DNA from: Roseateles koreensis
GTDB lineage: Bacteria; Pseudomonadota; Gammaproteobacteria; Burkholderiales; Burkholderiaceae_C
Reading direction: 5' to 3'
DNA length: 64,000 nucleotides
NCBI RefSeq assembly: GCF_028595305.1
Contig: NZ_JAQQXS010000005.1
Span: forward strand, 186,001 to 250,000
Under the pieces are notes generated by a model. The model saw only the letters and a list, made by a program, of their open reading frames with translations. It did not search any database and was not told the DNA's origin. Within the stretch, counting starts at the first letter, position 1. The number at the start of each line of letters is the position of its first letter. Both the position numbers and the translations under genes were made by a program. Positions 954 to 15,161 of the stretch are shown here, one piece after another.

Positions 954-3062
954 ATGAGTGAAACGCTGCAAGCGCATGACACCGTCTTGCGAGTGGCGGT
1001 GGATGCGCCTCAGCACAGCGGACTGATCGATCCCCTGGACTATCTGAGCCCTGGCCCCTTGCCGCCCGGCAGTTTGGTGCGGGTGCCTTTTGGGCGGCGA
1101 GAAACCTTGGGCATCGTCTGGCCGGGGAATTCCGCGTCGGAGATCGACCCTGCTTCCTTGCGCCCCATTCAATCCACTTTGGACGCCTTGCCGCCGCTCA
1201 GCCGCACCTGGTGCCGCTTGATCGAGTTCGCCGCCAGTTATTACCAACGCAGCATTGGCGAGGTGGCCTTGTCGGTGCTGCCGCCGCAGTTGCGCGATCT
1301 GGACAGCCAGCAGCTCAAGTTGCGCCTGAAACGTGCAGCGAAGTTGCCCGTTGGCGCGTCGATTGGCAGCCCGGGGGAGGAAGTTTCAGTCACGGATGCA
1401 GCCGGCCCTACGCTCAATCCCGCGCAAGCCCAGGTTCTGGCCGAGTTGGATGCCTTGCTCCAGGCCGATGTGCCGCAAACGGCACCCGCACCCGTGCTGC
1501 TTTATGGTGTAACAGGCAGTGGCAAGACTGAGGTTTATCTGAGGGCGGCGGCGCATGCCCTTAGCCAAGGCCGCCAAGTGCTGGTGCTGGTGCCTGAGAT
1601 CAATTTGACGCCGCAATTGGAGGCGCGTTTTGCCGAGCGCTTTGCCGGCCGGCGCATGGTTTCTTTGCACAGCGGACTGACGCCCGCGCAGCGCCTGCGC
1701 CATTGGTTATCGGCCCATCTGGGCGAGGCAGAGCTGGTGCTGGGCACGCGTCTGGCGGTGTTCGCCTCGTTGCCCCGTTTGGGACTGATCGTGGTCGATG
1801 AAGAGCACGACCCCTCTTACAAGCAGCAAGACGGGGCCCGCTATTCAGCACGCGACTTGGCCGTCTACCGCGCCCATCAGGAAAAAATACCTGTCATCTT
1901 GGGCTCGGCAACCCCTTCGCTCGAAAGCTGGCAGCGTGCCAATGAAGGGCGCTACAAGCGCCTGGTGTTGCCCGGGCGCATTGGCGGCGGCGCCCTGCCG
2001 AGAGTGCGCCTGTTCGACATGAAGATGTTGCCCTTGACCAAGGGTGTGACGACGGCGCTCACTGCACCGCTCATTCAGGCGCTGAGAGCGCGGCTGGAGC
2101 GCGGCGAGCAAAGCCTGATCTTCTTGAATCGGCGCGGCTACGCGCCGGTGCTGCATTGCGGTGAATGCAACTGGAAAAGCGACTGCCCGCATTGCAGCGC
2201 CTGGCGGGTCTTTCACAAAGGTGACCGAACCTTGCGCTGTCACCACTGCGGGTTCACCGAGCGAGTGCCGTTTGCCTGCCCCACCTGCGGCAATCAGGAC
2301 ATCGCGCCGCTCGGGCGAGGTACCGAGCGGCTGGAAGAGCAACTCGCCGAGACTTTTCCCGGCGCGCGCGTAGCTCGCATCGATGCCGATTCGACCAAGC
2401 ACAAGGGTCAGCTGGAAGCGGCCTTGCAAGCAGTGCACGATGGCGAGGTGGATATCCTGGTGGGCACCCAGATGATCACCAAAGGGCACGACTTTCGCCG
2501 CATCACCTTGGTGGCGGCGGTCAACCCAGATGGTGCCTTGTTCAGCAGTGATTTTCGGGCGCCGGAGCGGCTGTTCGCCCTGCTCATGCAAGCAGGTGGG
2601 CGGGCAGGGCGCGATGCCGAGCAGGCCGCCCGCAGTGAGATGTGGGTGCAAACCTGGCACCCTGAGCACGCCCTGTACAAGGCGCTGGTCCAGCATGATT
2701 TCGAATCATTCGCGAAGAGCCAACTCGCTGAGCGCGCCTCCGCCGGGCTACCGCCCTTCGCCCATTTGGCGCTGCTGCGTGCCGAAGGGCGGACGGTGGA
2801 GGTCGCCAAGGGCTTTCTCGACGCAGCCGCAGCTTTTGCCCAGCAATTGCCGCCGGCCTCACAGGTGCTGATCTATCCCTGCATCCCCATGAGCGTGGCC
2901 CGGGTTGCTAACGTCGAGCGCATGCAGATGCTGGTGGAAGCCGCCAGCCGTGGGGCTTTGCAGCACCTGTTGTCGATGTGGATGCCTGAACTTCACGCCC
3001 TCAAGCGGACGCACAAGGGACTGCTACGCTGGGCGGTGGACGTGGACCCCTTGGCGATTTGA
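954..3062 (+). CDS. priA: Primosomal protein N' (replication restart helicase PriA)
   Basis: PriA recognises stalled or collapsed replication forks and starts reloading of the replicative helicase. The 702-residue product matches the usual length (about 730). An N-terminal DNA-binding region covers roughly residues 1-150. The helicase core follows, with Walker A GVTGSGKTE near residue 185 and the DEEH box in VVDEEHDPSYKQ near 282. A zinc-binding insertion near residues 400-450 carries four cysteine pairs (CGEC, CPHC, CHHC, CPTC), the diagnostic feature of PriA. The C-terminal helicase lobe contains GTQMITKGHDF and the GRAGR motif. It starts with ATG after a gap carrying DnaA-box-like sites, and runs convergently toward the next gene. 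Confidence 0.97.
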   Translation: MSETLQAHDTVLRVAVDAPQHSGLIDPLDYLSPGPLPPGSLVRVPFGRRETLGIVWPGNSASEIDPASLRPIQSTLDALPPLSRTWCRLIEFAASYYQRSIGEVALSVLPPQLRDLDSQQLKLRLKRAAKLPVGASIGSPGEEVSVTDAAGPTLNPAQAQVLAELDALLQADVPQTAPAPVLLYGVTGSGKTEVYLRAAAHALSQGRQVLVLVPEINLTPQLEARFAERFAGRRMVSLHSGLTPAQRLRHWLSAHLGEAELVLGTRLAVFASLPRLGLIVVDEEHDPSYKQQDGARYSARDLAVYRAHQEKIPVILGSATPSLESWQRANEGRYKRLVLPGRIGGGALPRVRLFDMKMLPLTKGVTTALTAPLIQALRARLERGEQSLIFLNRRGYAPVLHCGECNWKSDCPHCSAWRVFHKGDRTLRCHHCGFTERVPFACPTCGNQDIAPLGRGTERLEEQLAETFPGARVARIDADSTKHKGQLEAALQAVHDGEVDILVGTQMITKGHDFRRITLVAAVNPDGALFSSDFRAPERLFALLMQAGGRAGRDAEQAARSEMWVQTWHPEHALYKALVQHDFESFAKSQLAERASAGLPPFAHLALLRAEGRTVEVAKGFLDAAAAFAQQLPPASQVLIYPCIPMSVARVANVERMQMLVEAASRGALQHLLSMWMPELHALKRTHKGLLRWAVDVDPLAI

Positions 3063-3118: not shown

Positions 3119-3817
3119 TCAGGCCAGAGGCTCCGCCGGATAGCCGGCTTCCGCCAAGGCTTCGCGCAGCAAACCTGGCAAGTCACGAACCAGATTGGGC
3201 TTGTGGATGACAGGCACACCCTCCAGGGCGAAGGCGTATGGCGCGCGTTCAGCCTCGCTCAGTGACGTCACCACAATCAGTTTGCTTTGCGCAAATTGAG
3301 GCTGCGAGCGCAGGCTGGTGATCAGCGTGGCACCGTCAATGCCCGGCAGCAAGATATCGACGATCAAGACATCGGGCAGCAAATTACCGCACATTGCTAA
3401 TCCGACAATGCCGTCATGGGCCACGTGCAACTCCAAACTTGGAAATTGCTGACCGACGAGGAGCGACACTAAATTTTGGAAGTGAACGGAATCTTCAATC
3501 AGCAGCATCCGGGGCGCACCTGAGGGGGGCGCGTTGCGGGATGCTTTGGTGCGCGGAGGCAGCGCCGGGGCGGCCCATTCAGCGCGTGCGCTCCGCTCGG
3601 TGCGTGATGCGCTTGCGCCATTCATGCGCTGTGCAGTCCAGGCCTCGACCGAGCTGCGGGAAATGCGCCGGTGGCCGCCGGGCGTCTTCCAGGCCACCAA
3701 CTCGCCACGATCAACCATCAACTGAACCGATCGAACGGCCAAGCCCAGCATGCGGGCGACCTCCATCGTGCTGCAGTCGTGACTTTCGTCGGCGGTTTGA
3801 ATTTGTTTGTTTGGCAT
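3119..3817 (-). CDS. Helix-turn-helix (excisionase/MerR-like) protein fused to a receiver domain
   Basis: A 232-residue two-domain regulator with an unusual order. Residues about 14-65 form an excisionase/MerR-type winged helix-turn-helix (STMEVARMLGLAVRSVQLMV, then a wing with TPGGHRRI). A basic/proline-rich linker (about 66-100) leads to a response-regulator receiver domain (103-225). The receiver keeps the acidic pair E108/D109, phospho-acceptor D154 in IVDILLPG, T184 and K206, so it should accept phosphate. Most response regulators carry the receiver first, so this N-terminal DNA-binding arrangement is noteworthy. No kinase is adjacent. It is divergent from the pseudokinase gene across a 328-base gap, which makes that operon its most likely target (inference). 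Confidence 0.85.
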   Translation of the reverse strand: MPNKQIQTADESHDCSTMEVARMLGLAVRSVQLMVDRGELVAWKTPGGHRRISRSSVEAWTAQRMNGASASRTERSARAEWAAPALPPRTKASRNAPPSGAPRMLLIEDSVHFQNLVSLLVGQQFPSLELHVAHDGIVGLAMCGNLLPDVLIVDILLPGIDGATLITSLRSQPQFAQSKLIVVTSLSEAERAPYAFALEGVPVIHKPNLVRDLPGLLREALAEAGYPAEPLA

Positions 3818-4145
3818 TCGTCAATTTTGCCGAAAATTTCTCACTTGTGCCGCAAAAATTACGGATTAAAACGGCGCTATTGATAGATATGGGTATCTGT
3901 TTTTCGCTGAATTTCGATCGTAGTGTCAATCTGATCGTCGGGGGGCGTGCTTTTCATACAGTTTGGGGATATGCGCCTGCGCGTAGGGTCTGTCGATTTG
4001 TCACCTGAAAACTGGGATGATGCCTGCCCGACTGTTCGTGTGCCCTTGTGGCGTGACTGTCGCCGCACTCCCCCTATCTGTGGGGCTTTGTAGTTAGAGG
4101 GGCAAAAACTGGCGATGAGCACACTAACATCACGGTAACTTTCCT
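3818..4145. promoter_or_regulatory. AT-rich divergent promoter region
   Basis: This 328-base gap separates the divergent HTH-receiver gene and pseudokinase gene. I see no gene in it. It is markedly more AT-rich than its surroundings between about 3820 and 3920. Two similar elements, TTGCCGAAAATTTC at 3827-3840 and GTGCCGCAAAAATTAC at 3847-3862, lie 20 bases apart, about two helical turns, directly upstream of the regulator start. They are candidate operator half-sites for autoregulation, but this is inference from spacing and similarity only. Confidence 0.4.
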
Positions 4146-5576
4146 ATGCGCATGCCAGAACTAAACCTTCCCCCGCCTGCCGCTCCTGTGTCCATGAGCG
4201 AGGGCTTGGCCCTGGGCGTATGGCGGGTGCGCTCTGCGTTGGAGAGTGGTGGCGTGGCGCCCTGGGGGTCGTCCGGCCAACCTGCCCAGTGGTACGGTGT
4301 GAGCCACGCTTTGGCTAAGGACCAAACGGCGGTCGCCTCGATTTTGCCCCGGGACGAGCGTTCTATAGCCGTCATGTTGCGGTTTGGGGATCTGGCTGCA
4401 GAGTTTGAACAACTGAGCCATCCCGCGCTCGCCCCCCCCACGGACAGCGGCGTCACGCCTACGGGGCAGCCGTATCTGATTTTCGAGCGAGGCCAGGGTC
4501 GGCCTCTGTTGCAGGCGGCCGCCGCTCTGCCCTTGAGGGAGCGCCTGGCCTTGTTGCTGCAGTTTTGCGAGGCCTTGCGCGCCGCGCATCAGCAAGGCTG
4601 GCTGTGGGCTGAAATCGATCCCTCCATGGTGTGGCTGGGCCATGACCATCAGGTTCGACTGATGGCCTTGGGCCTGATGCGCATGGCTGAACCCAGCAGC
4701 CCTTTTGAACATGTGATGGCGTTGAGTTCTGCAGCGGGCTATGCCAGCCCCGAAATCTTGGCGGGTGAAGTGCCCAACTTGGGCAGCGAAGTTTTTGGCG
4801 TGGGTGCGCTGCTGCGCGCGCTGGTGATGGGCGAGGCAATGGCCGGTGTGGCGGGCTCTGGCGACGTGGAGCCCGCCTTGAGCCCCAAGGCGCAGTTCAG
4901 TCTGGATGCCTTGATCCACAAGGCGCTGGCGCCGCAGCCTGAATTTCGCTATGCCAGCGTGGATGATTTTTCCAATGATTTGAAGGCTTGGCTGGCTGGG
5001 CAGGATCATTCGGCGCTGAGCTTCAAGCCGATGCCTGAACTGCGGGAGCCCCTGGCCGTGGCCATTGAATCAACGGTTTCGCCGTGGTCGCCCGCGCGCA
5101 GCGGGGGGCGATGGCTGGCGGCCTTGGTCTTGCTGGGTGTGCTGATGGCCGGGGCCTGGGTGGCGCGTGATGTGCTGAGGGTTCAATGGCAGCATTTCGC
5201 GGCCAAGGGCCCGGACAGCGAACTGGCGGCCTTGCGCCCATCGGTCGCGGCGGCACTGCCCTCCGATCCGCAGCCCGTGTCACTGCAACAGCAACAGCAA
5301 CCGGGCAAGCCTGTCGATCTGACCGATGCTCCGCCTGAACCCGCACGCGATACCGCGACGCTTGTGCCAACCGGCCATGGCGACACCCGTCCCGCACTCA
5401 AATCAATGGGCAAGGCGGCCGTGAAAACTCAGGGTTATGGGATCAAGCCGGACCTGTCGGCGGCGTCGGGCGTGGTGCCAGGTGAGGGCGGCACGTTTGA
5501 CCCTAACGCCGAGTCCCCGCTGAGCGCCGCCGCTCAGGAGGCACCGCCCGTCGCATCTGGCGCGTTGCGGCCTTGA
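4146..5576 (+). CDS. Membrane-anchored Ser/Thr protein pseudokinase
   Basis: The product has 476 residues. The first ~290 have the overall order of a bacterial Ser/Thr kinase fold, but the catalytic residues are gone. The beta-3 lysine (VAIK) is absent in TAVASILP. The HRDxKPxN loop reads WAEIDPSM (W154-M161), so catalytic Asp is Glu, Lys is Asp and Asn is Met. DFG is ALG (174-176). GYASPE of the activation-segment end is kept. One transmembrane helix lies near 323-344, followed by a low-complexity Pro/Ala-rich tail with a five-Gln run, presumably periplasmic. It sits 31 bases before the O-antigen-ligase-like gene and is probably co-transcribed. A scaffold or sensor role in polysaccharide assembly is inferred. 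Confidence 0.8.
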   Translation: MRMPELNLPPPAAPVSMSEGLALGVWRVRSALESGGVAPWGSSGQPAQWYGVSHALAKDQTAVASILPRDERSIAVMLRFGDLAAEFEQLSHPALAPPTDSGVTPTGQPYLIFERGQGRPLLQAAAALPLRERLALLLQFCEALRAAHQQGWLWAEIDPSMVWLGHDHQVRLMALGLMRMAEPSSPFEHVMALSSAAGYASPEILAGEVPNLGSEVFGVGALLRALVMGEAMAGVAGSGDVEPALSPKAQFSLDALIHKALAPQPEFRYASVDDFSNDLKAWLAGQDHSALSFKPMPELREPLAVAIESTVSPWSPARSGGRWLAALVLLGVLMAGAWVARDVLRVQWQHFAAKGPDSELAALRPSVAAALPSDPQPVSLQQQQQPGKPVDLTDAPPEPARDTATLVPTGHGDTRPALKSMGKAAVKTQGYGIKPDLSAASGVVPGEGGTFDPNAESPLSAAAQEAPPVASGALRP

Positions 5577-5607
5577 GCATGGCGACCGTGGTGTGGGCGG
5601 TCTGTCT

Positions 5608-8163
5608 ATGAGTCGATCTACCCCGTCCCCAGCCACGCCACCAGCATCACCTCATTCGAGGCGTCTGGCCTTTTTGCCTTTGTTGATGGGGCTGCCTTGC
5701 GCGCTGGCCGGTGCTTGGTTGGCGAGTCACCATCCCTTGTCTGGCATCGGGGCTGCGGCGCTCTTTGCGCTGGTGTTGGCATTGGCCTTCCGTGCCTGGA
5801 CGTGGACACCGCTTATTCTGGGCGTTTTGCCAATCCTGGGCTTGGCTTCTTGGTCCGGTTGGCTCACGGTTGAAGAACTGGACCTGCTGGTGCTGGCCGC
5901 AGCCGCCGGTGCTTATCTGGCTTGGGGCTTGGCGCCGCGCCCGCGTGAACGGCATCGGCAATCCTCGACAAAAGCGCGCCAGGCCCTGGTGCTGACCCCG
6001 GCCGTGAGCTTGCTGTTGCTGGCCATGGCCGTCGCATTGTTGACTGCCACGGTGCGCGGCGTGGCGGATGCCGGCGGCTTGACATGGGGCTGGTTTCAGG
6101 GCTACCACGAGCCCTTGAACAGTGTGCGAGTGGGCAAGAGTTTCTTTCAGGCGCTGCTGATGCTGCCTTTGTGGATGGAGGTTGGCGCCCGCCAGCCGAA
6201 GCAAGTGGGGCGCACCCTGCTCTGGGGCCTGAGCCTGGCGGTCTTGTGCGTGAGCCTGGCGGCCTTGTGGGAGCGCGTGGCGTTTCCGGGGCTGCTCAAT
6301 TTTTCAAGCGACTACCGCACCACCGCCTTGTTCTGGGAAATGCACGTCGGCGGTGCCGCCCTGGATGCCTGTTTGTCCATGAGCATTCCCTTCGCGGTGC
6401 TCGCCTTGCTGCGTGCGCAAACGCGCTCCACCTTTGCTGCGCTTACCGGCCTGAGCTTGCTGGCTGCGTACGTGGCATTGACCACCTTTTCTCGCATCGT
6501 CTATGTGTCGGTGCCTTTGGGCGTGGTGTTGATGGGGGTCTTGCGCGCGCGTCAAACAGGGGTGCCCGCAATTGATGCCGTTGCAGTTGCTGACAGGCCA
6601 GCAACTGCGGCCACTGGCAGGCCACCGGCCGGCGAAGTGCGTGTGGGTATGGCGCTATGGGCGCTGGCTTTGCTGGTGTCGGCGGGTCTGGTGTTTGCGG
6701 GCGGAGGGGGCTATCGCGCCTTGCTGGCGCTGGTGGGCGCGGCCTTGTCCTTGTTGGCGCTGCCGCAACTTTTGTGGCAGCAGCCCTTGCGCCAACGGCG
6801 CAGCGCCTGGTTCATCGGGCTGGTGGGGGCTTGCGTGTTGAGCAGCCTGTGCGGGCTGCTGGTCTTGTGGTTCACTAAATTGGCCTACGTTTTGTACGCC
6901 CTGGTACTGGCCTTGAATTTGGGCTTGTGCTGGCGCTTGCGGGCGCGGCCTTGGCATGAGTCGCACGCGGTCTTGCTGGTGGGTGCTTGGTTGTGGCTGT
7001 TGGGCGGCACGGTGCTGGTGGCGGGCAATTGGGGCGGCATGCAAGCCGGCGTGCTGACCTTGTTGGCGGTGCTGATGTTGGCGGGCTTGATGTTGTTGAC
7101 CCTGCTGCGGCCCGGCCTGTGGCCTTGGGGGCGGCGCAATTCGCAGCAGCAGTGGCGCCACAAAGCCTTGATGTTTGTGGGCCTGCTGATTGCCTCGGCG
7201 GCGGTGGCAGCGTTGAGCGGCGGCACCTACTTGTTGAACCGAGCCGCCAACAGCCAGGATGATTGGCAGGGCCGCGAGCGGCATTGGCGTCAGAGCCTGG
7301 GGTTGCTCTCCGGCGCGGATGAGCGGTGGCTGGGCAAAGGGGCGGGCCGTTTTCTGGCGGGCCAATATTTCAGCGGCCTGCCCGACTCGCATGTGGGGGA
7401 CTACCGCGTCAAGCACGAGGAGGCTCAAAGTTATTTGGCCCTCAGTGCGGGTCAGCACATGCTCGGGCATGGCGAAATGTTTCGGGTGTGGCAGCGGATT
7501 GCGCCGCCTCAGGGCAACGTTCAGTTGATGCTGCGAGCCCGCGCTGTCAAGCCGGTCAGTCTGCATGTGGAGGTTTGTGCGCGGCACTTGCTCTACCCGG
7601 ACAGTTGCCTGTCTCACACGCAAGAATTGGCGGCCAGCCCTGATTGGCAAACGCTGCAAATTCCTTTGGGTACGGCGGCTGAAATGGGCGGAGCCTGGTA
7701 TGCACCCCGCCTGGTGTCCTTCGCCCTGGCGGTGGGCAATATGCGCGGTCAGGTTGACTTGACCCAGATGGCCCTGCACGACAGCTCGGGCCGCGATTTG
7801 CTGGCCAACGGCAATTTTGACCAAGAAATGGCCCGCTGGTTCTTCTCCAGCGATCGTCACCACATGCCCTGGCACGCCAAGAACCTGATCGTGCATGTGC
7901 TGTATGAACAGGGCATTGTGGGCCTGTTGCTGTTGCTTGCTGCCGTGGGGCTGGCGTTCTGGAATGTATGCGTCGGCCGTGGACGTCAGCACGAAGTGGC
8001 GCCAGCCCTGGCCGCCGCTTTGCTCGGCTTTTTGATCGTGGGCGCGGTAGACAGTCTGCTGGACACACCTCGCATCTCCTTCATGTTTTACACCCTATTG
8101 CTTCACGCCCTGACCTTGCAAGGCGCGAGCCCGCATGCCGCCAGGACATTGACCCGCCTATGA
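5608..8163 (+). CDS. O-antigen ligase / Wzy-type polysaccharide polymerase-like membrane protein
   Basis: An 851-residue inner-membrane protein with about a dozen hydrophobic helices, a large extracytoplasmic segment, then two final helices. The block HAKNLIVHVLYEQGIVGLLL near residues 753-772 resembles the His-containing HN..L...E.G..G motif of the WaaL/Wzy family, which transfers undecaprenyl-linked glycans. The large loop (about 560-750) is longer than usual and contains a jelly-roll-like stretch with LLANGNFDQEMARWF, reminiscent of carbohydrate-binding modules. I prefer ATG 5608 (MSRSTPS) over GTG 5593 because it is the first ATG. The stop overlaps the next start by ATGA, indicating translational coupling with the beta-helix gene. 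Substrate is unknown. Confidence 0.75.
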   Translation: MSRSTPSPATPPASPHSRRLAFLPLLMGLPCALAGAWLASHHPLSGIGAAALFALVLALAFRAWTWTPLILGVLPILGLASWSGWLTVEELDLLVLAAAAGAYLAWGLAPRPRERHRQSSTKARQALVLTPAVSLLLLAMAVALLTATVRGVADAGGLTWGWFQGYHEPLNSVRVGKSFFQALLMLPLWMEVGARQPKQVGRTLLWGLSLAVLCVSLAALWERVAFPGLLNFSSDYRTTALFWEMHVGGAALDACLSMSIPFAVLALLRAQTRSTFAALTGLSLLAAYVALTTFSRIVYVSVPLGVVLMGVLRARQTGVPAIDAVAVADRPATAATGRPPAGEVRVGMALWALALLVSAGLVFAGGGGYRALLALVGAALSLLALPQLLWQQPLRQRRSAWFIGLVGACVLSSLCGLLVLWFTKLAYVLYALVLALNLGLCWRLRARPWHESHAVLLVGAWLWLLGGTVLVAGNWGGMQAGVLTLLAVLMLAGLMLLTLLRPGLWPWGRRNSQQQWRHKALMFVGLLIASAAVAALSGGTYLLNRAANSQDDWQGRERHWRQSLGLLSGADERWLGKGAGRFLAGQYFSGLPDSHVGDYRVKHEEAQSYLALSAGQHMLGHGEMFRVWQRIAPPQGNVQLMLRARAVKPVSLHVEVCARHLLYPDSCLSHTQELAASPDWQTLQIPLGTAAEMGGAWYAPRLVSFALAVGNMRGQVDLTQMALHDSSGRDLLANGNFDQEMARWFFSSDRHHMPWHAKNLIVHVLYEQGIVGLLLLLAAVGLAFWNVCVGRGRQHEVAPALAAALLGFLIVGAVDSLLDTPRISFMFYTLLLHALTLQGASPHAARTLTRL

Positions 8164-9587
8164 AATTTGCGACGAAATTCCTTCTCGTACTCTTGAGCGG
8201 CGTGGCCTTGCTGGGAGTCGCGCTGGCGTGGGCTTGTATTGCTGTGCTGGACGTTTCTCCCAAGCAGGTTTGGGACGAAATGGGCCGCCGCAGCCCCAAT
8301 GAACTGATTCGTTATGCCGACGCCGCGTTGGCGCCGTATGAAGAGTTGCACGCCATCTTTCGCCCCGTGTTGTTGCAGCTGCAGCAACGTGTCGAGCGGC
8401 CGGTCGTGTCGGTGCAACTGCCCCAACTGGGTAAGGGGCGTCAGCCGGCGCGTGTGGGGGAGGGGCGTGTGGCAGCGAGCGTGGGGGTCAACACGGCGGA
8501 TGAATTGCGTCAGGCCTTGCAGCAGGCCCACGCCGGCATGGTGATCGAATTGGCGCCGGGCACCTATCGATTTCAAAAGTCCTTGAAGCTCGGCGGACCA
8601 GGCTCTGGCTTGGCGCCCATCGTGGTGCGTGCGGCCGTGCCCGACACAACACGGATCGAAATGAACACGGTTGAAGGCTTTCTGGTTGACCAGCCGTATT
8701 GGGTATTTGAAGATCTGACGATCACCGGCGTCTGCTTGCGCGACAGTGATTGCGAGCACGCATTTCATGTTGTCGGGCCGGCTGATTTTTTCGTGCTGCG
8801 CAACAGCGTGCTTGAAAATTTCAACGCGCCCGTCAAGATCAACGGGGTTGACGGGCGGTGGCCCGACCATGGGCTTCTGAGTCACAACACGTTGAGCAAC
8901 GCGCGGCCCCGCAAGACTTCGCTGCCGGTGGTGGGTGTCGATCTGGTGGGTGGAAATTTTTGGCACATCGACGACAACCTGGTGCGCAACTTTGTCAAAG
9001 AGCAGGGCGATCAAGTGTCTTATGGCCTGTTCGTCAAAGGCGGGGGCGAAGGGGCCCGCATCGAGCGCAATCTGGTGATTTGCTCTGCGTCCGAAATCTC
9101 GCGCACGGGTGTGCGTGTGGGGATTTCATTCGGCGGCGGTGGCACCGGCCCCGCCTTTTGCCGAGCAGACGGCTGCGAGCACTTTGAGCACAGCAACGGC
9201 CTGGCCGCCAACAACATCGTGGCGCATTGCAACGATGTCGGGCTGGACGTCAACCACAGCACGCACATCTTGCTAGCCCATAACACCCTCATCAACACCT
9301 CCGGCATCAGCTTGCGTGGGGAGGGCGCGCAGGCCCAGCTGTACGGCAATTTGTTTGAAGGCAAGGTGATGCTCAAGAATGGCAGCAGCCTCAAGCGTGA
9401 AATGAACCAGGCCATGCAGGCCGAGGCCACCTTTGCTGCACCCGATCAGCTCAATCTGGCTTGGCGAAAAGCGCCCGAGCGGGTGCCCTCCGTGCCGGCC
9501 GTGGCGGATGATTTCTGCGGGAAAAAGCGTCCTGCCGGCACCTTTCCTGGTGCCTTGGAGGGCGATGCGGCCTGTTCAGTCGAATGA
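8160..9587 (+). CDS. Secreted/anchored right-handed beta-helix protein (polysaccharide-lyase-like)
   Basis: A 475-residue protein with an N-terminal hydrophobic signal or anchor (MKFATKFLLVLLSGVALLG, running to about residue 30). A linker is followed from about residue 110 by a parallel beta-helix region with repeating strand/turn units such as TADELRQALQQA, GTYRF, FVLRNSVLENF, HGLLSHNTLSN, NNIVAHCN and LLAHNTLIN. The opening TADELRQALQQAHAGMVIEL..GTY is typical of the chondroitinase-B/alginate-lyase (PL6-like) superfamily. Catalytic residues cannot be assigned confidently by eye. ATG overlaps the preceding stop by 4 bases, so the two are translationally coupled and likely act on the same surface polysaccharide in the periplasm or outside. 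An upstream in-frame extension exists but would lie inside the preceding gene. Confidence 0.78.
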   Translation: MKFATKFLLVLLSGVALLGVALAWACIAVLDVSPKQVWDEMGRRSPNELIRYADAALAPYEELHAIFRPVLLQLQQRVERPVVSVQLPQLGKGRQPARVGEGRVAASVGVNTADELRQALQQAHAGMVIELAPGTYRFQKSLKLGGPGSGLAPIVVRAAVPDTTRIEMNTVEGFLVDQPYWVFEDLTITGVCLRDSDCEHAFHVVGPADFFVLRNSVLENFNAPVKINGVDGRWPDHGLLSHNTLSNARPRKTSLPVVGVDLVGGNFWHIDDNLVRNFVKEQGDQVSYGLFVKGGGEGARIERNLVICSASEISRTGVRVGISFGGGGTGPAFCRADGCEHFEHSNGLAANNIVAHCNDVGLDVNHSTHILLAHNTLINTSGISLRGEGAQAQLYGNLFEGKVMLKNGSSLKREMNQAMQAEATFAAPDQLNLAWRKAPERVPSVPAVADDFCGKKRPAGTFPGALEGDAACSVE

Positions 9588-9660: not shown

Positions 9661-11721
9661 GTGGCCGAAGCACCTTCTACCCTGAATCCCGCACAACTTG
9701 AGGCTGTCCATCACTTGGACGGGCCCTGTTTGGTCATTGCTGGCGCAGGATCGGGCAAAACGCGGGTGATCACCCAGAAAATTGCCCGTCTTTTGCAGGC
9801 CGGCTATGCGTCGAAAAACATCGCCGCCATCACCTTCACCAACAAAGCCTCGCAAGAAATGCGCGAGCGCGCCAAGCACCTGATTGGCGCGCGTGCGGCC
9901 AAGGACCTGGTGATTTCCACGTTCCACAGCCTGGGCGTGCGCATCCTGCGCCAGGAGGGGACGCTGGTCGGGTTGAAAGAGCAGTTCTCCATTCTCGACA
10001 GCGACGATGTGCTCGGCCTGTTGCGGGACGCCGGGGGCACGGTGGACGCCAACCAGGCCAAGTCCTGGCAATGGATCATCTCGCTGTGGAAGAACCAGGG
10101 CCTGTCGCCCAAGCAGGCCTTGTTGGTCGCCAAAGACGATAACGAGCGTGCTGCTGCCGTGGTGATGGAGCGTTATCAAGAGCGCCTGGCCGCCTACCAG
10201 GCGGTGGACTTTGACGACCTGATCAGCCTGCCGTTGCGTTTGCTGGAAGCCCATCCTGAGGCGCGTGGTCGGTGGCAGGAGCAATTGCGTTATGTGTTGG
10301 TGGACGAATACCAGGACACCAATGCCATTCAGTACGATCTGCTCAAACAACTGGTGGGCAGCCGAGGCATGTTCACCGCCGTGGGCGATGACGACCAAAG
10401 CATCTACGGCTGGCGCGGCGCCACCATCGAAAACCTGAAGCGCCTGCCGCTGGATTTTCCCAATCTCAAGGTGATCCCGCTGGAGCAGAACTACCGCTCC
10501 ACCGGCGCCATCTTGCGCGCCGCCAACAACGTCATTGCCATCAATCCCAAGCTGTTCCAGAAAAAGCTCTGGAGTGAGTTTGGCGATGGCGAGCCGGTGC
10601 AGTTGCTTGAATCCGACGGGGAAGAGCACGAGGCCGAGCGTGCAGTGGCCCGCATTCAGGCCCTGCGCGCCGAGGGCAAGTGTCAGGCCTTTGCTGATTT
10701 CGCCATCCTCTATCGCGCCAACCACCAGGCGCGCATTTTTGAGCAAGCGCTGCGCCGGGCTGAGATTCCCTACAAGGTGTCGGGTGGCCAGAGCTTTTTT
10801 GACAAGAGCGAAATCAAGGACCTGTGCGCCTGGCTGCGCCTGCTGGTCAACCAGGACGATGATCCGGCATTTTTGCGTGCCATCACCACGCCCAAGCGCG
10901 GCATTGGTCACCAGACGCTGGGCTCGCTCAGCCAGTTCGCGGGGCGCTGGAAGTGCAGCATGTTCGAGTCGCTGTTTGCCGAGTCCTTGGGTGCGGCGCT
11001 GACCACGCGCGCGCTGGGTTCGCTGCACGAGTTCGGCCGCTTCATCACCGACCTGGAGTTCAAGGCCAAGCACACCAGCGGCGCCAAGGAGGCCAAGGCG
11101 CTGATGTTGGAGTGGCTCAAGGAGATTGCCTACGAACAGCATCTCTACGACAACGAAGAGAACGAAAAAGTCGCCGCAGCGCGCTGGAACAATGTGCTCG
11201 ATTTTGTCGACTGGGTGGCCAAGCGCTGCGGTGGTGAAATTACGCAAGACGGCGGCGCCACCTTCGAGAGCGAAAAACAAACCGTGCTGCAGGTGGCGCA
11301 AACCATCAGCGTGATCCTCTCCATGGCCGAGCGCGGCGAGGAGCAGGACCAAGTCACGCTCACTACCTTGCACGCCTCCAAGGGCCTGGAGTGGCCGCAT
11401 GTATTTCTCGCCAGTGTCAATGAAGGCCTACTGCCCTTTAAGGCCGACGACGAAGAGATGACCGCTCAGCGTCTGGAAGAAGAACGCCGCTTGATGTATG
11501 TGGGCATCACCCGTGCCCGCACGACGTTAGCCGTGAGCACCCTGCGGCGGCGCAAAAAGAGCCGCGAACTGGTGATGGGCATCCCCAGCCGCTTCATCAC
11601 CGAGATGCGCCTGAACGAAGGCGAAGCCAAAGAAGACCCGCGCGAGAAACTCAAGCGCCTGCGGGAAGCGTTTGCCGCCAAGGGCGCGGCCTCAACTGCG
11701 GCACAACAAGCGAAAGATTGA
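9661..11721 (+). CDS. rep: ATP-dependent DNA helicase Rep (UvrD/PcrA superfamily 1A)
   Basis: Rep is a 3'-5' helicase that clears proteins ahead of replication forks. The 686-residue product aligns along its whole length with E. coli Rep (673). Motifs seen are: N-terminal LNPAQLEAVHHLDGPCLVIA, Walker A GAGSGKTR near residue 28, TFTNKAS, VDEYQDTN (motif II), GDDDQSIYGWRGA (motif III), EQNYRS, TLHASKGLEWPHVF and EERRLMYVGITRA. The block NEEHEA..A in Rep is present as GEEHEAERAVA, favouring Rep over UvrD. The start is GTG at 9661. It overlaps or abuts the YhhN-like gene downstream, suggesting one transcript. Confidence 0.95.
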   Translation: MAEAPSTLNPAQLEAVHHLDGPCLVIAGAGSGKTRVITQKIARLLQAGYASKNIAAITFTNKASQEMRERAKHLIGARAAKDLVISTFHSLGVRILRQEGTLVGLKEQFSILDSDDVLGLLRDAGGTVDANQAKSWQWIISLWKNQGLSPKQALLVAKDDNERAAAVVMERYQERLAAYQAVDFDDLISLPLRLLEAHPEARGRWQEQLRYVLVDEYQDTNAIQYDLLKQLVGSRGMFTAVGDDDQSIYGWRGATIENLKRLPLDFPNLKVIPLEQNYRSTGAILRAANNVIAINPKLFQKKLWSEFGDGEPVQLLESDGEEHEAERAVARIQALRAEGKCQAFADFAILYRANHQARIFEQALRRAEIPYKVSGGQSFFDKSEIKDLCAWLRLLVNQDDDPAFLRAITTPKRGIGHQTLGSLSQFAGRWKCSMFESLFAESLGAALTTRALGSLHEFGRFITDLEFKAKHTSGAKEAKALMLEWLKEIAYEQHLYDNEENEKVAAARWNNVLDFVDWVAKRCGGEITQDGGATFESEKQTVLQVAQTISVILSMAERGEEQDQVTLTTLHASKGLEWPHVFLASVNEGLLPFKADDEEMTAQRLEEERRLMYVGITRARTTLAVSTLRRRKKSRELVMGIPSRFITEMRLNEGEAKEDPREKLKRLREAFAAKGAASTAAQQAKD

Positions 11722-12434: not shown

Positions 12435-13265
12435 TTACATGCCCTTGAACAGGTGCGTGTAACTGCGACTGACCTCTAGCTTTTCGGCGTGACCTTTCAC
12501 GCCCACCAATTGCCGGCCCCGGAAGTCGCGGGTGATGCCGTCGATGGCGTGCGCGTTGACCAGCGTGGAGCGGTGGATTTGCCAGAACAGGGCCGGGTCG
12601 AGCTCATCCACCAGCTCTTTGATCGGCTTGCGGATCAGTGCTTCCACGCGCGCCGTTTGCACGCGGGTGTATTTTTCATCGCTGATGAAGAACAGCACCT
12701 CTTCCACCGGGATCATCTGAATCGCCTGGCCTACGGTGGCTTGAATCCATTGCAGGTAGCTGGGTTTGCCACCCGGATTCAGCTGGGCTGACAATTTGTG
12801 CAGCAGTTGTTGCAGTGGGGGGCTGGCGCTCAGGTTGTCGGCGTCGTTGCCTTGCTTGGCGGCCAGGCGCTTTTTGATGCGGTCCACCGTCAAGGTCAGG
12901 CGCTCCCGCTCGGCGGGCTTGAGCACATAGTCGGCCACACCTTGCTCGAATGCTTCGACGGCGTACTGGTCGTAGGCAGTGATGAACACGATCTCGGGCA
13001 CCAACCAGTCTTCGTCCTCGGGCAACTGGGCGATCTGGCGCGCTGCGTCGACGCCGGTAAGCCCCGGCATGCGTATGTCCAGAAAGACCAGATCGGGCCG
13101 GTGCTCGCGCACGAGGGCCACGGCTTCGAGGCCATTTTTGGCCTCGGCCACGATGTCCAGTTCAGGCCATACATCGGCCAGGCGGCTGCGCAACTGCTCG
13201 CGCATCAGGCGTTCGTCGTCGGCAATGATGGCGCGTACGGGCGTGGGCGGGGTGTGGGTGGTCAT
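12435..13265 (-). CDS. LytTR-family response regulator
   Basis: A 276-residue response regulator of the LytR/AlgR type. The receiver domain starts at VRAIIADDERLMREQL with the acidic pair D16/D17, phospho-acceptor Asp in LVFLDIRMPG near residue 60, and the switch Thr and Lys in VFITAYDQ and YVLKPAE. The C-terminal LytTR DNA-binding domain (about 170-276) contains VEEVLFFISDEKYTRV, FWQIHRSTLVNAHAI and LEVSRSYTHLF. ATG 13265 (MTTHTPPT) is chosen because upstream residues look non-coding and proline-rich. It is the last gene of a kinase-small membrane protein-regulator operon and is probably phosphorylated by the LytS-like kinase. Confidence 0.92.
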   Translation of the reverse strand: MTTHTPPTPVRAIIADDERLMREQLRSRLADVWPELDIVAEAKNGLEAVALVREHRPDLVFLDIRMPGLTGVDAARQIAQLPEDEDWLVPEIVFITAYDQYAVEAFEQGVADYVLKPAERERLTLTVDRIKKRLAAKQGNDADNLSASPPLQQLLHKLSAQLNPGGKPSYLQWIQATVGQAIQMIPVEEVLFFISDEKYTRVQTARVEALIRKPIKELVDELDPALFWQIHRSTLVNAHAIDGITRDFRGRQLVGVKGHAEKLEVSRSYTHLFKGM

Positions 13266-13314
13266 GGCGTTAGGGATGGGGGTGAGTCGATGGGTGGGCG
13301 GCCAATTGCGGCCT

Positions 13315-13746
13315 TCAGCCCCGCGAGGCCGGGCCGGCTTGGGATGAGGCGGGCCGCGTCCGCTTCTTGGGGGATCGCAGCAGCCGCGCCAGCAGAAATA
13401 GCGGCAGAGCAAGCAGGATCAGCGGCGAGAACAGCAGCCCGCCGACACCCAAAAATGCCAGCAGCAGGGCACCGAAAACCAGGCCGAGAATCAACACCGG
13501 CAAGGCCACGCTGAATAGCAGTGCCAAAGGCAGCACGATGCACAGCACCAGGCCGGCAATCACGCAGCCCAACAACCCGCCCGCCATGCCTTTGAATTCA
13601 CTCAGCTGAGTGAATTCCTGCCCGTTGATGGTGAGGTGAAAGTCCGGCGAGCTTGAGGCGAAATGCCATAGCAAGCCGCCGGTAAGTGCGCTCGTCAAGG
13701 CCACGCACAGGCCAATCAGCAAGATCAGTTTGAGGGTCGTTTTCAT
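13315..13746 (-). CDS. Small integral membrane protein between LytS-like kinase and LytTR regulator
   Basis: The 143-residue protein has an N-terminal hydrophobic helix (MKTTLKLILLIGLCVALTSA), a short polar segment (about 30-50, with LTINGQEFTQLSEFKG), and then a very hydrophobic region (about 52-128) of two to three helices ending in a basic tail. I do not recognise a family. Its ATG overlaps the kinase stop by ATGA, and the regulator follows 49 bases later, so it is firmly embedded in this two-component operon. An accessory role in signal sensing or as the controlled target is inferred from position only. Confidence 0.75.
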   Translation of the reverse strand: MKTTLKLILLIGLCVALTSALTGGLLWHFASSSPDFHLTINGQEFTQLSEFKGMAGGLLGCVIAGLVLCIVLPLALLFSVALPVLILGLVFGALLLAFLGVGGLLFSPLILLALPLFLLARLLRSPKKRTRPASSQAGPASRG

Positions 13747-15161
13747 GCTTGGCTTCCTTCATCTTGTGCGCAGCTGCGGTAGGGCACGCTAAGGGTCACG
13801 ATGCAGCCGGAGGGTTTGTTTTCGGTGATCGACACGCTGGCCTTGGCACCGTGCAGCAGGCTCAGGCGTTCACGGATATTGGCCAGGCCCACGCCTGTGC
13901 CGGCGGTTGCCGCCCGGCCAAAGCCCAAACCGGTGTCTGCCACGCTAACGGCGAGTTTGCCGTGAACGATTTCGGCCTTGACCTTCAGGCTGCCGCCCTC
14001 GGCCTTGGGTTCGAGGCCGTGCTTGATCGCGTTCTCGACCAAGCTCTGAATCATCATGGGTGGAAACTCGGCAGACAGCAAGCCGTCCGGCACATCGATC
14101 ACCGTTTGCAAGCGCTCCTCCATCCGCACCTTGAGGATTTCGAGATAGGGCCGGATGACAGCCAACTCGCGCCCCAGATCGCGCACCCCACTGGCGTTGG
14201 CCTCGCGCATGGTGGGCATCGAGGCGCGCAGCAAGGCGATCAGATTCTTCTGCATGATCGAGGCGCGCGGTGGGTCGGTTTCAATCAAATGGTCAATCGA
14301 GGCCAGCGTGTTGAACAAGAAATGCGGCTCCACCTGCGCCTGCATGGCCGCCATGCGAGCCTCCACCACCTGGCGCTTGAGGGATTCGGCCTCCGCCGTC
14401 TCGGTGGCTTGCGCGGCCTTCACCTCGGCCTGGATGCGGCCTTTGTAGGTGATCTTGATGACCGCCGAGGCCAGCACAAACAGCACCGCGAGATTGACCA
14501 AATAGTCGCCCAGGCGCACCACGGTGGTGGTGTTGCGTAGCTTGTGTGAGGCGCGTTGTGCCTCCATCGCCGCGTCGCGCTCGGCCTGTTGCGCTTCGCG
14601 GGCACTTTCTTGAGCGGCATCCCGGGCGTCACGGATGGCTTCTTCAATCGCCTGCTTGGCTTCTTCGATGGCTTGCTTCACCTGTGCGGCGTTGGCGCCG
14701 GGGGGTAAATCGACGTGAACGGCGGGTGGGTTGTCTTCCTTAGCGGGCGCGCTGGCTGCTGCATCCGACGCCGCTGAGGCAGCGGGTTTGCTGTTAGCAG
14801 CATCCGAGGGGGCGATGCGCACGCCTTTTTCGTCGATATTGATTTCGTAGTGCAGGGGCTTGTCCAGCTTGATCTGCGGCTTGGCGGTCTTGGCGGGGGC
14901 GGGTGCTGGGGTTGGCGTTGGCGGGGCGGGCGGTTCTTCCGCGTCGATGGGGTCCTCAACCACCTGGTGATTGATGCGCCAGGTGAAGGGCGGCAGCTCT
15001 TGCAGAATATTGGCGGCAATGATCAGGGCGATGGCCAGCACCACGAAACGGCGCCAGCTGATGCCGACCAGCCAGTTGGCATAGACATGAAATCCCTGCA
15101 CCACGGTTTGCGAAAAGCGCTGCCAGCGCTCGTAGTTCGTCAATGTCTTGCCTGCGTTCAT
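13743..15161 (-). CDS. LytS/YpdA-type sensor histidine kinase with coiled-coil sensor segment
   Basis: The 472-residue kinase has a first transmembrane helix near 38-52, and a proline-rich region (75-95). A long Ala/Glu/Arg-rich coiled coil (about 160-205, AIEEAKQAIEEAIRDA and similar heptads) follows, then a second transmembrane helix near 218-236. The His_kinase (PF06580-type) motif VEPHFLFNTL carries phospho-acceptor H280. The ATPase domain follows with NAIKHGLEP and DTGLGFG. The presumed periplasmic segment between the helices is therefore a coiled coil instead of a PAS or Cache fold. The gene leads an operon with the small membrane protein (ATGA overlap) and LytTR regulator. Confidence 0.9.
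   Translation of the reverse strand: MNAGKTLTNYERWQRFSQTVVQGFHVYANWLVGISWRRFVVLAIALIIAANILQELPPFTWRINHQVVEDPIDAEEPPAPPTPTPAPAPAKTAKPQIKLDKPLHYEINIDEKGVRIAPSDAANSKPAASAASDAAASAPAKEDNPPAVHVDLPPGANAAQVKQAIEEAKQAIEEAIRDARDAAQESAREAQQAERDAAMEAQRASHKLRNTTTVVRLGDYLVNLAVLFVLASAVIKITYKGRIQAEVKAAQATETAEAESLKRQVVEARMAAMQAQVEPHFLFNTLASIDHLIETDPPRASIMQKNLIALLRASMPTMREANASGVRDLGRELAVIRPYLEILKVRMEERLQTVIDVPDGLLSAEFPPMMIQSLVENAIKHGLEPKAEGGSLKVKAEIVHGKLAVSVADTGLGFGRAATAGTGVGLANIRERLSLLHGAKASVSITENKPSGCIVTLSVPYRSCAQDEGSQA

Follow-up and report, generated by a model that had tools for sequence, protein, structure and literature searches.

A pseudokinase, a Wzy-like protein and a beta-helix protein of Roseateles koreensis: probably an accessory part displaced from the exosortase A exopolysaccharide system

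The literature on PEP-CTERM begins with PMC1569441. In Aquincola tertiaricarbonis, floc formation is reported to require genes of the PEP-CTERM/exopolysaccharide system (PMC9850573). A pseudokinase, EcpK, is described as serving a Wzx/Wzy pathway in Myxococcus xanthus, as proposed without phosphorylation (PMC12004946; also PMC12802240). Bacterial Ser/Thr pseudokinases have been surveyed (PMC12599244), and one group described there is the GLW family, in which LLLL/W stands instead of the beta-3 Lys. Among the papers listed in our literature search, we saw none linking a pseudokinase to a Wzy-like protein of the type reported here.

The window, meaning the whole stretch of R. koreensis DNA that was analysed (64,000 nucleotides), lies on contig C31 of a genome of 4.37 Mb. 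It includes a four-gene locus flanked by priA and rep, with the following features.

priA: 954-3062, flanks the locus on the REG side
REG: 3119-3817, minus strand, 232-aa protein with an HTH_17 domain (excisionase/MerR-like) and a receiver domain
PK: 4146 (ATG) to 5576 (stop), plus strand, predicted Hanks-type membrane pseudokinase
WZY: 5608-8163, plus strand, polytopic Wzy/WaaL-like protein, 851 aa
WZY enlarged hydrophilic loop: 7213-7911, plus strand, residues 536-768
BH: 8160-9587, plus strand, N-terminal hydrophobic anchor or signal, then a right-handed beta-helix, lyase/epimerase-like
rep (DNA-helicase gene): 9661-11721, flanks the locus on the BH side

An earlier note on this DNA had described a regulator divergent from a tight three-gene run, and its frames and coordinates were reproduced. 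A gap of 31 nt separates PK from WZY, whose ATG is at 5608; the stop of WZY and the BH ATG overlap as ATGA (8160-8163), and REG and PK diverge from a region of 328 bp (3818-4145). A codon-usage gene caller found each of the four frames but placed the starts of PK (4194) and WZY (5674) further downstream. Scans for repeats, Rfam families and tRNAs, as well as a promoter and terminator scan (no promoters, terminators at chance level), found nothing bearing on the locus. Beyond rep and YhhN (12435-15161) are genes for a LytTR regulator, a small protein and a histidine kinase, an arrangement also seen in several relatives.

PK consists of a kinase-like domain (residues ~24-300), a predicted TM helix (321-339) and a C-terminal tail of ~135 residues, presumed to be periplasmic. 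A profile of 13 homologues matched solved kinases (9eed, the best chain, at 1.3e-30; PknA at 5.9e-26; PknB at 1.5e-25), pointing to a Hanks-type (Ser/Thr) kinase fold, and the PHROGs match was to a serine-threonine kinase family alone. The HRD position is (W/L)(A/S/R/I)E in all 13 aligned homologues, in which Asp also stands instead of the catalytic-loop Lys and the Asp of DFG is missing; a conserved beta-3 Lys was not seen in the alignment, its position being judged by eye. Judged by the HRD Asp, the catalytic-loop Lys and the DFG Asp, PK is predicted not to be an active protein kinase. Five other kinase-like places in the genome served as a control: at four of them a gene carrying HRDxKPxN was called, and at the fifth (L005) no motif was found with the caller used. 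A simple hydropathy scan, at the threshold used, placed a single TM helix beyond the kinase-like domain, both in the PK of the window and in 7 of 12 homologues. The membrane pseudokinase proposed in the earlier note is thus borne out by the kinase profile match, the lost catalytic motifs and the predicted helix. Assignment of PK to the GLW pseudokinases, as these are described in PMC12599244, was rejected because its HRD position reads (W/L)xE and not GLW. The longest tails in the 13-row alignment were those of the window's genus, and at some other loci the called PK genes were 430 to 630 aa long.

Among the genomes searched, PK was found solely in the taxonomic family of the window. In 349 order-level genomes, a search at E <=1e-45 with at most five candidates scored per genome returned the window's own genome and one 888-aa frame (G091), taken to be a true kinase; this sample differs from the 150 family genomes used below. 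In those 150, PK was counted as present at E up to 1e-30, so that the homologue of G149 (L064), which is in the alignment, fell below the cut-off and was not counted.

WZY itself had no Pfam or NCBIfam match up to E 1, PF04932 included, so by the curated cut-off it would not be assigned to the Wzy/WaaL (PF04932) superfamily. Among eight WZY relatives scanned, three had Wzy_C matches below the cut-off (E 4e-4 to 1e-2; 16-21 bits against a cut-off of 31.7), and two relatives from rep loci had likewise such matches. When the WZY profile was compared with TIGR03097 proteins, the alignment was confined to the surroundings of the SRG motif (E 0.0025, probability 12%). By sequence, the kinship of WZY to known Wzy/WaaL families is weak. 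The enlarged loop of the supposed ligase-like protein is present, with 233 hydrophilic residues (536-768), in which C657 and C667 were invariant in 50 of 50 sequences; R174, K177, E222, W243, E244, R556, N734, D819 and R822 were also invariant. The end of the loop (residues ~710-748) resembles part of PDB 4mgq (38 of 169 profile positions, E 3.4e-4), a chain of 168 aa from a GH10 protein, which we take to be a carbohydrate-binding module. Wzz-like matches of the loop (E 0.085 to 0.15) were judged to be due to chance. A Pfam search of the loops gave nothing for that of the window and no family in more than one of 34 members. In the plasmid collection no match to WZY was found.

BH matched Beta_helix at 1.4e-5, with 25.3 bits against a cut-off of 25.9, and no NCBIfam model at a meaningful score. 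Its profile matched alginate lyases at up to 7.4e-11, with matches ending at residue 261 of 475, consistent with the anchored, lyase-like beta-helix of the earlier note. The matched beta-helix alginate lyases presumably belong to PL6 and PL31. A PL6-type lyase is a beta-helix with catalytic Lys/Arg and a Ca site. In eight BH sequences K226, D236, R251, K293, R303, E343, H344 and D359 were invariant. The protein is rare: it was found in 7 of the 150 genomes from the family and in 6 of the 349 from the order, both counts including the window's own genome.

None of the 54 called genes of the window had an XrtA-cluster reference protein as its best BLAST match, in keeping with the earlier statement that genes for a glycosyltransferase, a flippase or sugar nucleotides are absent nearby, here in a comparison with XrtA references. 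Such a cluster was found elsewhere in the same genome. Profile matches on contig C3 identified TIGR03098 (2e-224), TIGR03097 (6e-141) and exosortase A (5e-102), and BLAST added TIGR03099-, amidotransferase-, ACP-, GT4- and flippase-like genes. Exosortase B was on contig C7. The XrtA cluster (C3) and the PK-WZY-BH locus (C31) thus lie on different contigs.

In the 150 family genomes WZY was present in 34, one of them (G106) doubtful, by a weak 100-residue match alone. The XrtA marker TIGR03098 occurred in 29 of the 34 genomes with WZY and in 9 of the 116 without it (Fisher 4e-18, a value that ignores kinship). Its absence from five genomes with WZY, the doubtful one among them, counts against the association. 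TIGR03098 was also found in 13 of the 14 genomes with PK and in all seven with BH. TIGR03097 was found in 32 of the 34 genomes with WZY, and therefore WZY is additional to the usual XrtA ligase.

WZY loci were taken as the best 80 of 292 in the GTDB collection. By type, 38 of these 80 were rep loci and 42 were not, and no rep-locus row was classed by PK alone. TIGR03098-, TIGR03099- or ACP-like genes were found at 22 of the 42 other loci, and an amidotransferase-like gene alone at six more (scored with TIGR03108, the reference for this gene reaches 238 bits, below the cut-off of 817). The remaining 14 had no XrtA gene, some being on short contigs, and are counted against the link. The XrtA cluster of Scleromatobacter humisilvae (L109:10022-14460, also L063) holds two WZY-family genes in tandem, of 794 and 678 aa.

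A tree of WZY was built from 83 rows, which included 71 of the 82 called WZY genes of the best 80 loci, short or contig-cut genes being dropped. Rows were classed as rep (39), xrtA (30) or other (14); L159, whose stretch had no XrtA gene, was not classed as xrtA. The 39 rep-locus rows formed one side of a single branch (SH-aLRT 100, by a quick method), and the rep group corresponds to one change. The tree suggests one relocation of WZY to the rep locus, because the midpoint root, although a root is not given by the data, places the rep-locus rows inside the XrtA-type rows.

Eleven BH homologues were found outside the genus, eight of them in XrtA-type clusters (G036, G028, G068, G069, G440, G412, G362 and Photobacterium sp. 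GJ3). XrtA markers were on the same contig in G036 and were detected for G028 as well, and in G068 the BH homologue lay between TIGR03098- and TIGR03099-type genes. The homologue of the gammaproteobacterium Photobacterium sp. GJ3 (L206:12001-13392, 34%) is carried on a 1.69-Mb plasmid, in a cluster judged XrtA-like by GT4 homologues, a TIGR03097-like protein and a homologue of the amidotransferase (52%); an exosortase was not found in the 25 kb read. Two further homologues were near WZY: one adjoins the WZY gene on a 9.8-kb contig (G284), and that of Inhella proteolytica (L146) is 5.2 kb downstream of it. The last (G468) had neither an XrtA gene in ~58 kb nor WZY nearby, which counts against the association. 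Other beta-helix-like proteins, with PF13229 just under the cut-off, were seen near WZY in XrtA-type clusters (L154:3611-4564 and L117:15240-16097); these had no BLAST match to BH. A beta-helix partner may be a recurring feature.

As genomic context shows, XrtA exopolysaccharide clusters are where most of the WZY and BH families belong, and by this clustering and by co-occurrence with XrtA markers both families would be assigned to that system as accessory. The locus is probably a displaced accessory part, or satellite, of the exosortase A exopolysaccharide system, and its link to that system is well supported by context. Besides the exceptions above, we count against this reading the weak sequence kinship of WZY, the end of the BH lyase matches at residue 261, and the sigma-54 scan, which with up to two mismatches found no sigma-54-like site in 3818-4145. 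In the whole window that scan gave 28 matches against 39.6 expected.

The earlier note had proposed a self-contained polysaccharide module, a reading that the absence of XrtA-type best matches in the window would favour. It does not agree with the XrtA cluster in the same genome, with the prevalence of WZY and BH homologues in such clusters, or with the restriction of BH directly after WZY to the window's genus, and we consider it very improbable. Nor do we expect WZY to be a routine O-antigen ligase (WaaL) in a locus serving LPS. WZY is like the Wzy/WaaL superfamily in topology and in SRG and loop motifs, but it lacks a PF04932 match of its own, many of its homologues lie inside XrtA clusters and its presence tracks TIGR03098, which makes this reading improbable. 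Both were set aside on genomic context.

The place of PK is a separate matter. The earlier note had called for a search for the same neighbours beside the pseudokinase, and the pairing of PK with WZY does recur. PK was present at 33 of the best 80 of 292 WZY loci, on the strand of WZY in 33 of 33; WZY directly followed by BH was seen solely in three genomes of the window's genus. PK, WZY and BH form an unbroken row in one genome of that genus (G013), and SBP3 lies between PK and WZY in another (G144). The four-gene set as a unit is local to the genus, because the direct adjacency of WZY and BH is confined to it and SBP3 separates PK and WZY in one genome.

At 18 of the 33 loci nothing was called between PK and WZY, and at two Inhella loci the two genes were 7 nt apart or overlapped by 1 nt. 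Intervening genes at the other 15, which are counted against the pairing, were PhoD and/or SBP3, on the other strand only (seven loci), an unnamed same-strand gene (five), or several genes including rep (three). Also counted against it are three of the 14 family genomes with PK, which lack WZY (G007, G028 and G067), and four of 36 rep-clade rows, in which WZY is without PK. A metagenome-assembled genome of an uncultured Pelomonas (L082) had PK and WZY together with no rep gene in the stretch, which may reflect a relocation or an assembly fault.

Genomes with PK but no WZY, and loci with WZY but no PK, would also be expected if PK, WZY and other genes simply stayed near priA and rep in a stretch that is rarely rearranged, with PK unrelated to WZY. 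S9pep, AEC, PhoD and SBP3 recur at the rep locus too, and rep itself was present in 31 of 36 rep-locus rows, some contigs ending early. However, PK was kept with WZY more often (32 of 36 rows, on the same strand in 32 of 32) than S9pep (17), AEC (15), PhoD (7) or SBP3 (6), and in Pelomonas-type loci it stays with WZY where other neighbours have been replaced. Changes on the tree were counted for the 33 rep-locus rows whose upstream stretch was 7 kb or longer. PK (29 of 33) changed twice and AEC (14 of 33) eight times; PhoD, SBP3 and sensHK (5 of 33 each) changed three times each. S9pep (17 of 33) changed once and is as clade-stable as PK, which counts against a special bond of PK with WZY. A stable neighbourhood devoid of function is thus a real possibility, albeit not the reading we favour. 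Context shows that the rep-locus WZY clade is mostly accompanied by the pseudokinase, and we regard a partnership of PK and WZY as possible to likely.

REG had HTH_17 (3.3e-11) and Response_reg (8.3e-11) domains and the receiver motifs LLIEDS, VDILLPG, VVTSLS and VIHKPN. Loci L067 and L150 carry its two close homologues, with identities of 75% and 66%. In L067 a membrane sensor kinase gene (sensHK) is one gene away, and this gene and an S9 peptidase separate REG from PK; in L150 the REG homologue is directly divergent from a sensor kinase gene. In the window both the sensor kinase gene and the S9 peptidase are absent between REG and PK, so that REG faces PK, an arrangement that looks like the result of gene loss. 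Membership of REG in the same functional unit as PK, WZY and BH is doubtful, and REG is probably a separate response regulator, although it may still control the PK-WZY-BH run.

From resemblance and neighbourhood we infer the following roles for WZY, BH and PK within a satellite of the XrtA system. WZY would have moved once to the rep locus, and in the inner membrane it would act as a second polymerase or ligase beside TIGR03097, on undecaprenyl-linked chains from the XrtA cluster, with the glycan bound by its large periplasmic loop. An anchored BH would trim or epimerise the chain at the periplasmic face, as AlgL and AlgG do with alginate. PK would be a non-catalytic scaffold: on the cytoplasmic side it would bind WZY, or a partner, and might switch or assemble WZY in the phosphorylation-independent way suggested for EcpK and EpsV of Myxococcus. 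A bolder form is that a eukaryote-like transmembrane pseudokinase of Hanks fold directly gates a Wzy/ligase-type enzyme without phosphorylation, and in this way controls polymerisation or attachment of the chain in the XrtA system, the pair having arisen once as the enzyme left its biosynthetic cluster; this we offer tentatively, as an idea with the balance against it. If the satellite reading is true, two families lacking a meaningful NCBIfam match (the large-loop Wzy-like and beta-helix proteins) join the exosortase A exopolysaccharide system, and the locus lets a link between a Hanks-fold pseudokinase and polysaccharide assembly be put to the test.

Among known systems, the XrtA/PEP-CTERM cluster (TIGR03097, TIGR03098, TIGR03099 and TIGR03109) is nearest, as it encloses WZY and BH homologues in many other genomes. 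Unlike its members elsewhere, WZY and BH of the window lie on another contig, beside a pseudokinase; neither had an NCBIfam match at a meaningful score. TIGR03097, a putative O-glycosylation ligase associated with exosortase A, shares with WZY the Wzy/WaaL-type membrane character, the SRG motif and the system; it is a 408-position family, whereas WZY, which co-exists with it in the same 32 genomes, is about twice that length and has the large loop. BH shares the right-handed beta-helix with beta-helix alginate lyases and AlgG, but its profile aligns with the lyases only up to residue 261. The GLW pseudokinases, as characterised in PMC12599244, resemble PK in being mostly proteobacterial, in having lost the catalytic motifs and in having a C-terminal TM helix; HRD is replaced by GLW in the former and by (W/L)xE in PK. 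In the M. xanthus EcpK-EpsV pair a pseudokinase is proposed to help a Wzx/Wzy exopolysaccharide pathway without phosphorylation, a role like the one we suggest for PK. EcpK is tyrosine-kinase-like (BY) and acts on a co-polymerase (PMC12004946), whereas PK has a predicted Hanks (Ser/Thr) fold and adjoins a Wzy-like protein.
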